Below are positions 21,122 to 58,735 of a DNA stretch of 64,000 nt, one piece after another. The stretch covers positions 1,302,001 through 1,366,000 of the forward strand of contig NZ_CP059493.1 in assembly GCF_014042015.1 (NCBI RefSeq), in the 5' to 3' direction. The notes below the pieces were generated by a model. That model saw only the letters and a list, made by a program, of their open reading frames with translations, was not told the DNA's origin and made no database searches. This DNA is from Actinotalea sp. JY-7876 (lineage in GTDB: Bacteria > Actinomycetota > Actinomycetes > Actinomycetales > Cellulomonadaceae). Numbering within the stretch: the stretch's first letter is position 1; each line of letters begins with the position of its first letter. Position numbers and translations under genes: made by a program.

Positions 21122-21143
21122 TCGAACACCTGTTCGCTACACT
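21122..21143 (+). promoter_or_regulatory. SOS box and -10 element of recA
   Basis: A near-perfect actinobacterial LexA site, TCGAAC-ACCT-GTTCGC (21122-21137; one mismatch from TCGAAC-N4-GTTCGA), directly followed by a -10-like TACACT (21138-21143). LexA binding here would block recA transcription until DNA damage. No good -35 is visible upstream, as is common for recA promoters of this group. Confidence 0.85.
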
Positions 21144-21343: not shown

Positions 21344-22384
21344 ATGGCAGCTCCCGCAGACCGCACGAAGGCCCTGGAGGCCGCGCTCGGCCAGATCGAC
21401 CGCCAGTTCGGCAAGGGGTCGATCATGCGCCTGGGCGACGAGACCCGCGCTCCGATCGAGGTGATCCCCACCGGCTCGATCGCGCTGGACATCGCGCTCG
21501 GCATCGGCGGCCTGCCCCGCGGCCGCGTGGTGGAGATCTACGGCCCGGAGTCCTCCGGCAAGACGACCGTCGCCCTGCACGCCGTCGCGAACGCGCAGCG
21601 GGCCGGCGGGATCGCGGCCTTCATCGACGCCGAGCACGCGCTGGACCCCGAGTACGCCAAGAAGCTCGGGGTGGACACGGACGCGCTCCTGGTCTCGCAG
21701 CCCGACACGGGTGAGCAGGCCCTGGAGATCATGGACATGCTGATCCGCTCCGGCGCGATCGACATCGTCGTCATCGACTCCGTCGCGGCCCTCGTGCCCA
21801 AGGCGGAGATCGAGGGCGAGATGGGTGACAGCCACGTCGGCCTCCAGGCGCGCCTGATGTCCCAGGCGCTGCGCAAGATCACCGGCGCCCTGAGCGCGTC
21901 CGGCACCACGGCCATCTTCATCAACCAGCTCCGCGAGAAGATCGGCGTGTTCTTCGGTTCGCCCGAGACCACGACCGGTGGCAAGGCGCTGAAGTTCTAC
22001 GCGTCGGTGCGCATGGACATCCGCCGCATCGAGACGCTCAAGGAGGGCACGGAGGCGGTCGGCAACCGGACGCGCGTCAAGGTCGTCAAGAACAAGGTCG
22101 CGCCGCCGTTCAAGCAGGCCGAGTTCGACATCCTCTACGGCATCGGGATCTCGCGCGAGGGTGGCCTGATCGACCTGGGCGTGGAGCACGGGTTCGTGCG
22201 CAAGTCAGGGTCGTGGTTCACGTACGACGGCGACCAGCTGGGCCAGGGCAAGGAGAACGCGCGCGGGTTCCTGCGTGACAACCCCGACCTGGCCGACGAG
22301 CTCGAGAAGAAGATCAAGGAGAAGCTCGGCATCGGCGCCCGGATCGACGCGCCGGCCGACCCGTCCAAGCAGGTCGACTTCTGA
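21344..22384 (+). CDS. recA: Recombinase RecA
   Basis: A 346-residue RecA, without an intein. Walker A is GPESSGKTT (K73), followed by the DAEHALDP and [20 protein letters not shown] motifs and the L2 segment [23 protein letters not shown]. RecA drives homologous recombination and stimulates LexA self-cleavage, so with lexA at 39 kb and the SOS box at 21122 the central SOS loop is encoded in this window. recX follows immediately. Confidence 0.98.
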
Positions 22385-39235: not shown

Positions 39236-40000
39236 TCACAGGCTCCGCAGCACGCTCACCACGCGCCCGAGCACGACGGCGTCGTCGCCCGGGATCGGCT
39301 CGTAGGCGGCGTTCTGCGGCAGCAGCCAGACGTGGCCGTCCGCACGCCGTAGCGTCTTCACGGTCGCCTCGCCGTCGATCATGGCCGCGACGATCTCGCC
39401 GTTCTCGGCCACGGGCTGGCGCCGGACCACGACCCAGTCGCCGTCGCAGATGGCGGCCTCGATCATCGAGTCGCCCGCGACCTTGAGCAGGAACAGCTCT
39501 CCCTCGCCGACGAGCTGGCGGGGCAGCGGGAAGACGTCCTCGACGACCTGCTCGGCGAGGATCGGGCCGCCGGCCGCGATGCGACCCACGACCGGCACGT
39601 ACGACGGCGCCGGGGCGGCGTCGTGCATGCCGGTCTCGTCGACGGGCACGCCGCCCCGGTCGGCGCCGAGCCGGCTGATGGCCCGCGAGTCGTCGGGCTG
39701 CACGACCTCGATGGCGCGCGGACGGTGCGGGTCGCGCCGCAGGTAGCCCTTGCGCTCGAGCACGGTGAGCTGGTGCTTGACCGAGGACGGGCTCGTCAGC
39801 CCGACCGCCTCGCCGATCTCCCGCATGCTCGGCGGGTAGCCCCGCCGCTCGACGCTCGACCGGATCGTCTCGAGCACGAGGCGCTGGCGGGGCGTGAGCC
39901 CGTCGCCGCCCGCGGCGGCGTCCGGCAGCGCGGTCACCGACGCGAGGTCACCGCCCGGCTGCTGGTCGGTGCCCGACGGGGGTGTGGTCCTGGGCGCCAT
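39236..40000 (-). CDS. lexA: SOS repressor LexA
   Basis: A 254-residue LexA. N-terminal winged helix-turn-helix (residues ~34-98, [22 protein letters not shown]), linker, and the S24 self-cleavage domain: cleavage site A143-G144 (RIAAGGPI), Ser178 nucleophile (GDSMIEA) and Lys215 base (ATVKTLR). It represses recA, the HEPN-dinB operon and probably itself and the LysM gene, all of which carry its sites. The ~33-residue N-terminal extension is longer than in E. coli. The linker (~100-130) is also long. Confidence 0.97.
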
Positions 40001-40109: not shown

Positions 40110-40150
40110 ACCTTAGGGGCGCGATGCCGCGTGATCAAACATCTGTTCGA
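40110..40150 (-). promoter_or_regulatory. lexA promoter with overlapping SOS box
   Basis: On the lexA strand there is a -35-like TTGATC (40138-40133), a 17-base spacer and a -10-like TAAGGT (40115-40110). A LexA-type site (TCAAAC-ATCT-GTTCGA on the plus strand, 40135-40150; one mismatch from consensus) overlaps the -35. This is the expected autoregulation of lexA. Confidence 0.7.
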
Positions 40151-40157
40151 GCGTGTC

Positions 40158-40232
40158 TCGACACGGTGGGTGGCCCGTGGTAGACATCGTACAGACGTTC
40201 GACGTACAGCCGTTCGACGGACACGCGTTCGA
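40158..40232 (+). promoter_or_regulatory. LysM-gene promoter with three abutting SOS-box-like repeats
   Basis: A -35-like TCGACA (40158-40163), 17-base spacer and -10-like TAGACA (40181-40186) are followed by three 16-bp elements sharing their end bases: 40187-40202, 40202-40217 and 40217-40232. Each ends in a perfect GTTCGA; their left halves (TCGTAC, ACGTAC, ACGGAC) match TCGAAC at 5, 4 and 4 of 6 positions. The underlying repeat unit is 15 bp (GTACAGACGTTCGAC and variants). The array would lie at and after the transcription start, where bound LexA could block RNA polymerase. Confidence 0.65.
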
Positions 40233-40256: not shown

Positions 40257-40691
40257 ATGACGGCGATCATGTGGGACCACGAGCCCGTCCTGTCCGTCCG
40301 CACGCCCGCCGCACGCACGACGGCCGGACGCACGACGGCCGGCCGCACGACGACCCGGCGCGTCCCGGAGGTCCGGGCCGCCGACGGGCGGGCCCAGGGC
40401 GGGCACCTGCGCCTCACGCGCCGTGGCCGGCTGACGGTCTGGCTGGTCGCGGCCGCCGCCGGGGCGGGCGTCGTGCTCTCGGCCCAGGCCGCCGGCGCGG
40501 ACTCTCCCGCGGCCGCCCAGCCCGTGGTCACGCACGTCGTCGCGCCGGGCGAGACGCTCTGGGAGATCGCCGGGGGCGTCGCGGCGCCGGGCCAGGACCG
40601 TCGCGACGTCGTCGCCGACCTCGTCCAGCTCAACGCGCTGGGCGGTGCGGAGCTCCAGGTCGGGCAGCAGATCCTCGTGCCGCAGCCCTGA
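40257..40691 (+). CDS. LysM-domain membrane protein, probable SOS-induced division regulator
   Basis: A 144-residue protein with a cytoplasmic N-terminus containing a short Thr/Arg repeat (TTAGR units, residues ~19-36), a membrane helix near 58-80, and an extracytoplasmic LysM domain (~92-142, [14 protein letters not shown]...VGQQILVPQ). It sits divergently from lexA and before nrdR, the position of chiZ in Mycobacterium; lexA/yneA of Bacillus has the same layout. Those proteins delay division during the SOS response, so I infer the same role. The ATG follows GAAGGGGAGA. The catalytic residues of a hydrolase are not seen. Confidence 0.82.
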
Positions 40692-40819: not shown

Positions 40820-41281
40820 ATGCACTGCCCGTTCTGCCGGCACAGCGACTCCCGCGTGGTCGACTCGCGCACGTCCGACGACGGCGCCTCGATCCGGCGC
40901 CGGCGGCAGTGCCCGAACTGCCAGCGCCGCTTCACCACGTTGGAGACGGCCTCGCTCTCGGTGGTCAAGCGGTCCGGGGTGACCGAGTCGTTCAGCCGCG
41001 AGAAGATCGTCAACGGCGTCCGCAAGGCCTGTCAGGGGCGCCCCGTGAGCGAGGACGACCTCGCCCTGCTGGCGCAGCGCGTCGAGGAGAACCTCCGCAG
41101 CACCGGCACGGCCGAGCTCGACGCCCACGAGATCGGGCTGTCGATCCTCGGCCCGCTCCGCGAGCTCGACGAGGTGGCGTACCTGCGCTTCGCGAGCGTC
41201 TACCAGGCGTTCGAGTCGCTGGACGACTTCGAGGCCGCCATCACGGCGCTGCGCGCCGAGCACGGCGACCGTCCCGCCTGA
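40820..41281 (+). CDS. nrdR: Transcriptional repressor NrdR
   Basis: A 153-residue repressor of ribonucleotide reductase genes. The N-terminal zinc ribbon uses C3, C6, C31 and C34, and an ATP-cone domain (residues ~46-136, [20 protein letters not shown]) senses ATP/dATP. It completes the conserved lexA-LysM-nrdR arrangement. A strong GGAGGAGGTGGAGG ribosome-binding site precedes the ATG. Confidence 0.96.
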
Positions 41282-56873: not shown

Positions 56874-56903
56874 TTGACGTGGCTCGAACAGGTGTTCGAT
56901 GAT
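56874..56903 (+). promoter_or_regulatory. SOS-controlled promoter of HEPN-dinB
   Basis: A perfect LexA site TCGAAC-AGGT-GTTCGA (56884-56899) lies between TTGACG (-35, 56874-56879) and GATGAT (-10-like, 56898-56903; 18-base spacer). It should make the HEPN-dinB operon damage-inducible. It is 20 bases from the start of the divergent spermidine-synthase-like gene and could affect it also. Confidence 0.87.
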
Positions 56904-56921: not shown

Positions 56922-57440
56922 ATGACGACGACGACGAGCACGGCGGGAGCCGCGACGCGGCGCCTGCGGGTCGGCGCCGGCGACGGCGGACCCCGCGTCC
57001 TGCGCGCGGTCGAGGGGGCGCAGGGTACGGAGCGCCCCGTGCCGCCGTCCGCCGTGGAGCTCCTGGCGCGGAGCGACGCGGAGCTGACGGCCGCGCAGCT
57101 CGCCGGCTCGGAGGAGGAGCGCTTCCTGCACGCCCACCTCGCCGCGCTGCGCGCGGGGGCGGCGCTGCTCGAGGTCACCGGGCGGCCCCGGCGTCGGCCG
57201 GTCCCGCGCACGGTCTGGGACATGGTCGCCGCGGTCGCCCCGGACTTGTCGCCCTGGACCACCTTCTTCGCCGGCGGGGCGCCGGTGCGGGCCGCGCTCG
57301 AGTCCGGCCGCGAGCACGAGGTCGGCGCGGAGCAGGCGGAGCGGACCGTGGCCGCCGCCGAGGACTTCCAGGACGCGGTGCGGCGGACGCTCGGCGCCGA
57401 CGCGGCGTCGCAGGGGCGGCTGGTGCTGCACGCGTCCTGA
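56922..57440 (+). CDS. SAV_6107-type HEPN domain protein
   Basis: A 172-residue helical protein matching the actinobacterial SAV_6107-type HEPN family, which is often next to dinB. The conserved helix is SEEERFLHAHLAALRAGAALL (R67, H70, H72), followed by RTVWDMVAAVAPDLSPWTTFFAGGAPVRAALE and a C-terminal helix. HEPN proteins are frequently RNases or RNA-binding partners; the usual R-x4-6-H site of the second half is not evident, although R67-x4-H72 has that spacing. It is the first gene behind a perfect SOS box and is followed 29 bases later by dinB. Confidence 0.84.
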   Translation: MTTTTSTAGAATRRLRVGAGDGGPRVLRAVEGAQGTERPVPPSAVELLARSDAELTAAQLAGSEEERFLHAHLAALRAGAALLEVTGRPRRRPVPRTVWDMVAAVAPDLSPWTTFFAGGAPVRAALESGREHEVGAEQAERTVAAAEDFQDAVRRTLGADAASQGRLVLHAS

Positions 57441-57469: not shown

Positions 57470-58735
57470 ATGAGTCGCACGCCGCCGCCGGCGGGGGTGA
57501 AGCGCAGCTGGGGGACCGACGAGGACGGCTGCTCGATCCTGCACGTCGACATGGACGCCTTCTTCGCCTCGGTGGAGCTGCTGCGCCGCCCGGAGTTGCG
57601 TGGCCGCCCCGTCATCGTCGGTGGGGACACGCGGTCGGTCGTGCTCGCGGCGACCTACGAGGCGCGCGCCTACGGCGTGCACTCGGCGATGCCGATGGCC
57701 CGCGCGCGGCGGCTGTGCCCGCAGGCCGTCGTGCTGCCGCCCGACCGAGCCGCCTACCTGCGGGCCTCGACGGCCGTGATGGCGATCCTGCGGGACGTCA
57801 CCGACGTCGTCGAGCAGGTGAGCGTCGACGAGGCGTTCCTCGATGTCTCGGGGGCGCGACGCCGGTTGGGACCACCCACGAGCATCGCCGCGCTGATCCG
57901 CGGGCACGTCCGTGAGCAGCTCGGTCTCCCGTGCTCGGTGGGGATCGCGAGCACCAAGTTCGTGGCGAAGCTGGCGTCCGGCTTCGCCAAGCCGGACGGC
58001 GTGCTGCTCGTGCCGCGGGACGCCACCGTCGAGCTGCTGCGCTCGCTGCCCGTCGGTGCCCTGTGGGGCGTGGGGGAGCGGACGCGGGACGCCCTCGCGC
58101 GGTGGGGCATCACGACGGTCGCGCAGCTCGCCGACGCCGACGTCGCGGTGGTGCAGCGCGCCGTCGGCAGGGCGACCGGTGCCCACCTGCACGACCTCGC
58201 GTGGGGCCGTGACCCCCGGCCCGTCGTGACGGAGCGCCAGGAGAAGAGCATCGGCGCCGAGACGACGTTCGAGCAGGACACCGCGGCCGTGGACGTGCTC
58301 GAGGGCCACCTCCTTCGGCTCGCGGACCGCTGCGCGAGCCAGCTCCGCGCCCGGGGGTACGTCGCCCGGACCGTCTCCCTCAAGGTGCGCACCGAGGACT
58401 TCACGACCCTGACCCGCTCGCGCACCCTCGGCACCCCGACCGACGTGGGCCGCGACCTGTACGCCGCGGCCAGGGACCTGCTCGGCGGCGTCGACCTCGG
58501 CGCCCGCCGCGTCCGGCTGCTCGGCGTGCGCGCCGAGGGCCTCGGCGAGGCCACCGCGCGACAGCTCACGCTGGAGGAAGCCGTCGACGACGCGTCCGAC
58601 GCGCGGCGGCGCGCCGAGCAGGCCATGGATGACGTCCGCCAGCGGTTCGGCGCGGGTGCGCTGGGTGCCGCGGCGCTCACGGTGGCGCGGGGACGGGGCT
58701 CAACTACCGCCCCAGCCGGGGAGGACCTATCCTGA
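57470..58735 (+). CDS. dinB: DNA polymerase IV (Y family)
   Basis: A 421-residue translesion polymerase. Metal ligands D27 (HVDMDAFFASVE) and D120-E121 (SVDEAFLD), a thumb helix-hairpin-helix (LPVGALWGVGERTRDALARWGI) and a little-finger domain. A beta-clamp-binding-like motif QLTLEE follows at the C-terminal part. It replicates past lesions with low fidelity. It is the second gene of the SOS-controlled HEPN-dinB operon. The N-terminus has 20 extra residues before the fold. Confidence 0.95.
   Translation: MSRTPPPAGVKRSWGTDEDGCSILHVDMDAFFASVELLRRPELRGRPVIVGGDTRSVVLAATYEARAYGVHSAMPMARARRLCPQAVVLPPDRAAYLRASTAVMAILRDVTDVVEQVSVDEAFLDVSGARRRLGPPTSIAALIRGHVREQLGLPCSVGIASTKFVAKLASGFAKPDGVLLVPRDATVELLRSLPVGALWGVGERTRDALARWGITTVAQLADADVAVVQRAVGRATGAHLHDLAWGRDPRPVVTERQEKSIGAETTFEQDTAAVDVLEGHLLRLADRCASQLRARGYVARTVSLKVRTEDFTTLTRSRTLGTPTDVGRDLYAAARDLLGGVDLGARRVRLLGVRAEGLGEATARQLTLEEAVDDASDARRRAEQAMDDVRQRFGAGALGAAALTVARGRGSTTAPAGEDLS

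Follow-up and report, generated by a model that had tools for sequence, protein, structure and literature searches.

An abutting array of LexA boxes predicted to control a ChiZ/YneA-like LysM gene divergent from lexA in Actinotalea

The lexA-LysM-nrdR locus

The window (the whole 64,000-nucleotide stretch of Actinotalea sp. JY-7876 DNA that was analysed) carries the gene order lexA, LysM gene and nrdR, with lexA divergent from the LysM gene and a 256-bp gap between the two.

39236..40000, minus strand: lexA (TIGR00498, 245.4 bits against a cut-off of 110.95; Pfam LexA_DNA_bind and Peptidase_S24)
40257..40691, plus strand: LysM gene, 144 aa, ChiZ/YneA-like (N-terminal stretch, hydrophobic helix at residues 61-79, LysM domain at residues 93-142)
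40820..41281, plus strand: nrdR (TIGR00244, 164.2 bits against a cut-off of 124.65)

The LysM protein has a hydropathy peak of 1.73 at residues 61-79, read as a single hydrophobic helix from the hydropathy profile (topology itself was not predicted), followed by the LysM domain, which scores 26.5 bits against a Pfam cut-off of 20.9. Its match to the NCBIfam YneA equivalog stays below the cut-off for that family (28.6 versus 60 bits), and the protein is therefore filed here as YneA/ChiZ-like and not as YneA. A search of solved structures with this protein returned only the LysM domains of a cell-wall endopeptidase (4uz2, 4xcm). ChiZ, DivS and YneA are reported to be induced by damage and to inhibit division (PMC3989709), and YneA is reported to require its membrane part as well as its LysM part (PMC13396833). 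Two traits of a ChiZ/YneA-type SOS division inhibitor, namely a position beside lexA and nrdR and a helix followed by a LysM domain, are found in this gene and its product; the location next to lexA and nrdR supports the ChiZ/YneA-like position that a preliminary description of this DNA had assigned to it. Judging from these features, the gene product probably halts cell division upon DNA damage, and nrdR perhaps shares a transcription unit with the LysM gene. The coding region of the LysM gene also holds three 15-bp direct repeats (40294-40353), which correspond to N-terminal Arg-Thr-Thr-Ala-Gly-like repeats and lie soon after the 15-bp operator array described below.

Three abutting LexA-like boxes at the LysM promoter

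The gap between lexA and the LysM gene contains the following elements.

40110..40138, minus strand: proposed lexA promoter, with -35 TTGATC (40138-40133), a 17-bp spacer and -10 TAAGGT (40115-40110)
40135..40150, no strand: lexA box TCAAACATCTGTTCGA, 11 of 12 consensus positions, overlapping the proposed lexA -35 with its TTGA inside the box
40158..40163, plus strand: -35 TCGACA of the LysM promoter, read from the sequence, N17 to the -10
40181..40186, plus strand: -10 TAGACA of the LysM promoter, read from the sequence, with TGG in front
40187..40202, no strand: LexA box 1, TCGTACAGACGTTCGA, 11 of 12 consensus positions, beginning at the base after the -10
40202..40217, no strand: LexA box 2, ACGTACAGCCGTTCGA, 10 of 12, sharing base 40202 with box 1 and forming a conserved pair with it
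40217..40232, no strand: LexA box 3, ACGGACACGCGTTCGA, 10 of 12, a lineage-specific third copy

The preliminary description had placed three 16-bp elements with a 15-bp period behind a TCGACA-N17-TAGACA promoter, with a separate site at 40135, and each of these can be read directly from the sequence. The promoter and the separate site are present as described, the elements begin at 40187, 40202 and 40217 with common end bases, and all three finish in a perfect GTTCGA, while their left halves match at 5, 4 and 4 of 6 positions, those of boxes 2 and 3 being weak.

The mycobacterial SOS consensus is given as TCGAAC-N4-GTTCGA (PMC4181829), and the array boxes match it at 11, 10 and 10 of 12 positions. 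The same motif stands before recA (21344-22384; box at 21122, 11/12) and, as a 12/12 match at 56884, ahead of an ORF at 56922 with a dinB-like gene next in line at 57470 (both gene names were read from the translations). The agreement with the consensus and the recurrence before recA bear out the earlier proposal of LexA-like boxes at the start of the LysM gene. A factor other than LexA was rejected as the occupant of the boxes, because the identical motif is found at recA and at the dinB-like gene.

In 20,000 first-order Markov simulations matched to the gap in length and dinucleotide composition, no sequence held a triple of sites scoring 10/12 or better with a 15-bp step, and a chance origin was rejected on this ground. 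Across the window, 5 sites of 10/12 were observed against a mean of 1.76 per simulated window (n=100), and 3 sites of 11/12 against a mean of 0.05 (n=100), in addition to one site of 12/12. The pattern GTTCGA-N9..11-GTTCGA has 7 matches genome-wide, 2 of them at the array; the left halves of the other 5 match at no more than 3 of 6 positions (by eye).

A two-box core is conserved in most loci that carry the LysM gene

A first set of relatives comprised 150 lexA-upstream regions: 80 loci, plus 70 regions from genomes in the family to which the window belongs, the latter counting the window itself. After 18 near-identical regions had been dropped, 132 distinct regions remained, 100 of them with a LysM ORF. 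Chained boxes are found in 92 of these 100 LysM-bearing lexA loci (two boxes in 73, three in 19); a single array box is present in 6, and in 2 the lexA box itself could not be recognised. The steps of these chains measure 15 bp in 91 cases and 16 bp in 20, in an analysis that admitted steps of 15-17 bp only, and in 74 of the 92 loci the first array box begins 52-54 bp on from the lexA box. When the chain analysis was repeated as an open scan of spacings from 8 to 44 bp on 101 LysM regions (one extra LysM having been found by profile), 15 bp was the best-pair spacing in 76, 16 bp in 14 and 30-35 bp in 7; 2 regions were without a pair and 2 without a lexA box.

The boxes are conserved at the same promoter beside the host lexA, as is looked for in an SOS box. 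The preliminary description had named absence of the repeats from close relatives among the things that would refute it, and such absence is not seen: a two- or three-box array is kept in 92 of the 100 LysM-bearing loci. It had also proposed comparing relatives for three boxes; the conserved core is a pair, and the third box is lineage-specific.

Among the 31 distinct regions of the first set in which no LysM ORF was found, 27 (mostly from Streptomyces) keep the lexA box and have no pair, one has no lexA box, and in three, on contigs that end early (L061, L084 and L087), a pair is seen with a spacing of 16 or 17 bp. Because the regions without LysM belong mostly to one genus, the association between the LysM gene and the array does not amount to many independent events. 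As the intergenic region is common to lexA and the LysM gene, the array could instead serve lexA autorepression, a reading that we regard as very improbable. In the window the array begins at the LysM -10, 52 bp from the lexA box; where no LysM ORF was found, most regions have the lexA box but not the array; and the three other boxes of the M. tuberculosis locus are reported to be without influence on the lexA transcript (PMC8151990). A lexA-only role was rejected.

Box spacing differs between the family and the class

A class-wide set was drawn from 89 genomes, in 85 of which LexA was found; 68 regions were examined, after removal of one 51-base piece; neither the window's own genome nor the remainder was used. 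In 59 of the 68 a LysM ORF was found. The best pair in these 59 regions is spaced by 16 bp in 42, by 15 bp and by 17 bp in one each, and by other distances (20-36 bp) in 6, and 9 have no pair. No pair is seen in 6 of the 9 class-wide regions in which no LysM ORF was found, and the other 3 (L219, L231 and L235) have one: L219 comes from a contig end, and L231 and L235 are full-length regions with a pair and without a LysM domain. L235 has a 15-bp pair and, downstream of it, an ORF (about 185-743, numbered along the LysM strand with the lexA start as origin) that by eye seems to encode a membrane helix and is perhaps a LysM-less inhibitor.

The commonest spacing is therefore 16 bp class-wide against 15 bp in the first, mostly family, set, and the 144 loci with a pair divide into 79 at 15 bp, 63 at 16 bp and 2 at 17 bp. 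The 16-bp form is a plain abutting GTTCGA|TCGAAC, whereas the 15-bp form is one base shorter, so that neighbours share a base. Because it is spread over many families, we read the 16-bp form as probably the older state.

Strict tandem patterns with 1 mismatch allowed were searched for at 15 bp in 150 family genomes and at 16 bp in 89 class genomes. The 15-bp pattern gave 98 matches in 91 of the 150 genomes and the 16-bp pattern 43 places in 43 of the 89; all 98 and all 43 fall less than 500 bp upstream of a lexA match. One spacing was searched per set, and genomes without a match may hold weaker or differently spaced boxes at the locus. Reversed-pattern controls gave 0 matches in both genome sets.

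Architecture of the two promoters

In an alignment of 64 loci, whose columns upstream of box 1 mix two registers, the half-sites are conserved, the N4 positions are free and conservation beyond box 2 is near background. A random minisatellite was rejected as the source of the pair, since N4 varies while the half-sites stay fixed. The LysM -35 is visible in the spacers as TCGAC ending 18 bp before TA in 50 of 144 and 19 bp before it in 25 of 144, with 0-1 occurrences at other gaps from 13 to 23; the -10 appears as TA 4-10 bp ahead of box 1 in 131 of 144 loci, with TGn before the TA in 87. Position 4 of box 1 is T (TCGTAC) in 114 of 142 loci, and the mirror position in the right half has the consensus T in 133. 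Further upstream, a near-palindrome CGTGTC-TC-GACACG occupies 40152-40165 of the window, and many relatives repeat GCGTGTCTCGACA in the stretch from the lexA box to the LysM -35, which exceeds the length that a -35 alone would need.

On the lexA side, TANNNT follows the proposed lexA -35 at 17 bp in 146 and at 18 bp in 46 of 197 regions (192 of 197 at one or the other), and in at most 3 regions at every other spacing from 13 to 22. The forms taken by the lexA box are TCAAAC and CCAAAC, and all 142 loci whose pairs are spaced by 15 or 16 bp have A at its position 3; this count is partly circular, as the lexA box was located with that very pattern (at least 10/12), and a neutral consensus scan gives the same form. 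A plausible reason why the lexA box is kept off consensus is that TTG(A), read on the opposite strand, serves as the lexA -35. In the arrangement proposed from these positions, the lexA box would cover the proposed lexA -35, and the array would cover the edge of the LysM -10, the presumed start site and the leader.

The third box

A third box of at least 9/12 is absent in the nearest relatives of the window, L037 (Actinotalea solisilvae) and L118, which have two boxes each and with which the window's three-box locus groups at an SH-aLRT of 99 on a quick LexA tree. This tree (66 rows, 12 of them three-box, with 23 of 63 inner branches open) requires no fewer than 7 switches between the two-box and the three-box state. 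Further boxes scoring 9/12 or better, starting 8-74 bp after the start of box 2, are mostly in phase with the array: the next box is offset by 15 in 13 of the 79 loci of the 15-bp kind, and by 16 in 5 and by 15 in 1 of the other 65 loci (63 at 16 bp, 2 at 17 bp). An offset of 12 is seen in 2 loci of the 15-bp kind and 4 of the others, which we read as overlapping TCGA letters, and 4 single matches lie at other offsets.

It is possible, and in our judgment rather doubtful, that only the box or boxes at the start site matter and that box 3 is a neutral by-product of a 15-bp tandem duplication in a repeat-prone stretch. Its absence from the nearest relatives, the number of changes on the tree, its left half of only 4/6 and the second 15-bp repeat nearby in the LysM coding region all favour such an origin. 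Its phase is what duplication would yield, but in-phase third boxes are predicted by duplication and by selection alike. The right half of box 3 is perfect, and many third boxes elsewhere keep GTTCGA or a near form as well as the phase, which speaks against this reading.

PafBC as a possible second damage input

The motif form TGTC(GG/AG/AC)-N10-TA occurs in 54 of the 144 spacers, against at most 6 at any other gap from 5 to 15, and both this PafBC motif form and a role for PafBC at the M. tuberculosis Rv2719c operon are reported (PMC8151990). The genome of the window has two adjacent WYL ORFs, which are pafB/pafC-like to judge by their adjacency and domain. These observations raise an alternative in which the activator PafBC is the main damage input at the LysM promoter and LexA merely trims, which we consider unlikely for the window: TGTC(GG/AG/AC)-N10-TA, the PafBC (RecA-NDp) promoter form, is absent from its promoter (4/6 by eye) and from those of the two nearest relatives, and the full TA-N3-T described in PMC8151990 is found in just 2 of 144 loci. 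In relatives such as L125 the PafBC-type motif shares the LysM -10 region, but in the window this motif is degenerate. Of the 144 loci, 19 have three boxes, 54 the PafBC motif and 3 both; many three-box loci cluster on the tree.

Proposed regulation by the array

From their sequence and conservation, it appears quite likely that the three repeats constitute an operator array through which LexA controls the divergent LysM gene, the product of which would be a ChiZ/YneA-like SOS division inhibitor, and perhaps also nrdR. The boxes would span about -6 to +40, and LexA dimers bound side by side over the start region would block RNA polymerase, with neighbouring dimers on roughly opposite faces because 15 bp correspond to about 154 degrees of helix. 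RecA-driven cleavage of LexA would empty the array and let the LysM protein (and NrdR) be made, and the LysM protein would then pause septation during repair. Several sites would reduce leakage and, if binding is cooperative, would delay and sharpen induction relative to the single-box lexA; the third copy would reinforce repression in the window's lineage. Taken singly, the boxes of the array match the consensus no more closely than do those at recA (11/12) and at the dinB-like gene (12/12), and for this reason any extra tightness would need to come from box number or cooperativity. That repression stays very tight until damage is heavy, as the preliminary description suggested, is a reasonable hypothesis rather than a finding.

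A broader and more tentative extension, which we put forward as a possibility we would not yet favour, is that in many actinomycetes one promoter per genome, that of the LysM inhibitor, is held under a packed array whose dimers alternate round the helix and bind as a unit, which would make this gene the last and a switch-like member of the SOS response. Selection would then hold box strengths off consensus, lineages would tune the number of boxes (2 or 3), and, in most members of the window's family, the spacing would have shrunk by one base pair, from 16 bp to 15 bp.

A simpler account, to which we give somewhat less than an even chance, is that the boxes are packed merely so that several independent LexA sites find room downstream of the -10 and ahead of the start codon, repression being additive and free of cooperative contact. 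Spacings of 15, 16 and 17 bp are all found among the 144 loci, and since each base pair adds about 34 degrees of rotation, this variation makes a rigid dimer-dimer contact unlikely; the LexA sites of phage GIL01 are also reported as non-cooperative (PMC4551915). Packing for space alone sits less easily with the class-wide open scan, in which the best pair falls at 15-17 bp in 44 LysM regions against 6 elsewhere, and with the cooperativity reported for colicin operators (PMC11332147).

In a damaged cell, the choice between repair and a stop to division is set by the order of SOS gene opening. The natural variants of this locus, with one, two or three boxes at spacings of 15 bp, 16 bp or wider, form a ready series for relating operator number to the threshold or delay of the checkpoint, and the same series suits the question whether LexA dimers cooperate.

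Comparison with known multi-box LexA operators

The lexA-Rv2719c (ChiZ) intergenic region of M. tuberculosis was reportedly treated by Dullaghan in 2002. That locus resembles the window in its divergent lexA, in a LysM division inhibitor followed by nrdR, and in its 1+3 boxes: one SOS box is assigned to lexA and three others to the Rv2719c operon (PMC8151990), and the Rv2719c-nrdR-Rv2717c operon is reported to be under LexA control (PMC4181829). The 1+3 layout of the window is thus precedented. The two differ in that a PafBC motif is reported in M. tuberculosis (PMC8151990) and is not canonical in the window. Four regions from one family of the class (L237, L238, L244 and L245), which we guess to be mycobacterial, show a looser 1+3 layout, in which a distant lexA box is followed by three boxes set 18-23 bp apart, as against the abutting 15-bp boxes of the window.

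More than one LexA site is reported in about 75% of sequenced colicin genes (PMC11332147), and the colicin K and E8 genes are described with tandem LexA sites just after the -10 (PMC4482635). Together with the M. tuberculosis locus (PMC8151990), these provide precedents for multiple boxes, to be set beside the statement of the preliminary description that LexA sites are usually single. Like the operators described for colicins, where two overlapping or adjacent LexA boxes lie just past the -10 of a self-harming gene (PMC4482635, PMC11332147), the array has at least two overlapping or abutting boxes just downstream of the -10. Colicins differ as enterobacterial plasmid genes with another LexA consensus and the reported extra regulators IscR and AsnC, whereas the array of the window is chromosomal and spread over an actinobacterial class. 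The dinBox1/dinBox1b pair of phage GIL01 is likewise described as two neighbouring, possibly overlapping LexA sites downstream of the start site, but there the second site is a half-site and binding is non-cooperative and helped by phage gp7 (PMC4551915). B. subtilis yneA is reported as an SOS-induced membrane-LysM division inhibitor near lexA (PMC13396833, PMC3989709); the similarity of the window's LysM protein lies under the YneA family cut-off.

Among the literature matches listed, whose coverage is partial, no title concerned a class-wide abutting LexA array at the lexA-LysM locus, and we do not claim that it is unpublished. The principle of a multi-box LexA operator is already known. What the present comparison adds is the tight packing and widely conserved spacing of the boxes, in a putative array at one promoter in many actinobacterial families and, by the strict patterns in the genomes searched, nowhere else.
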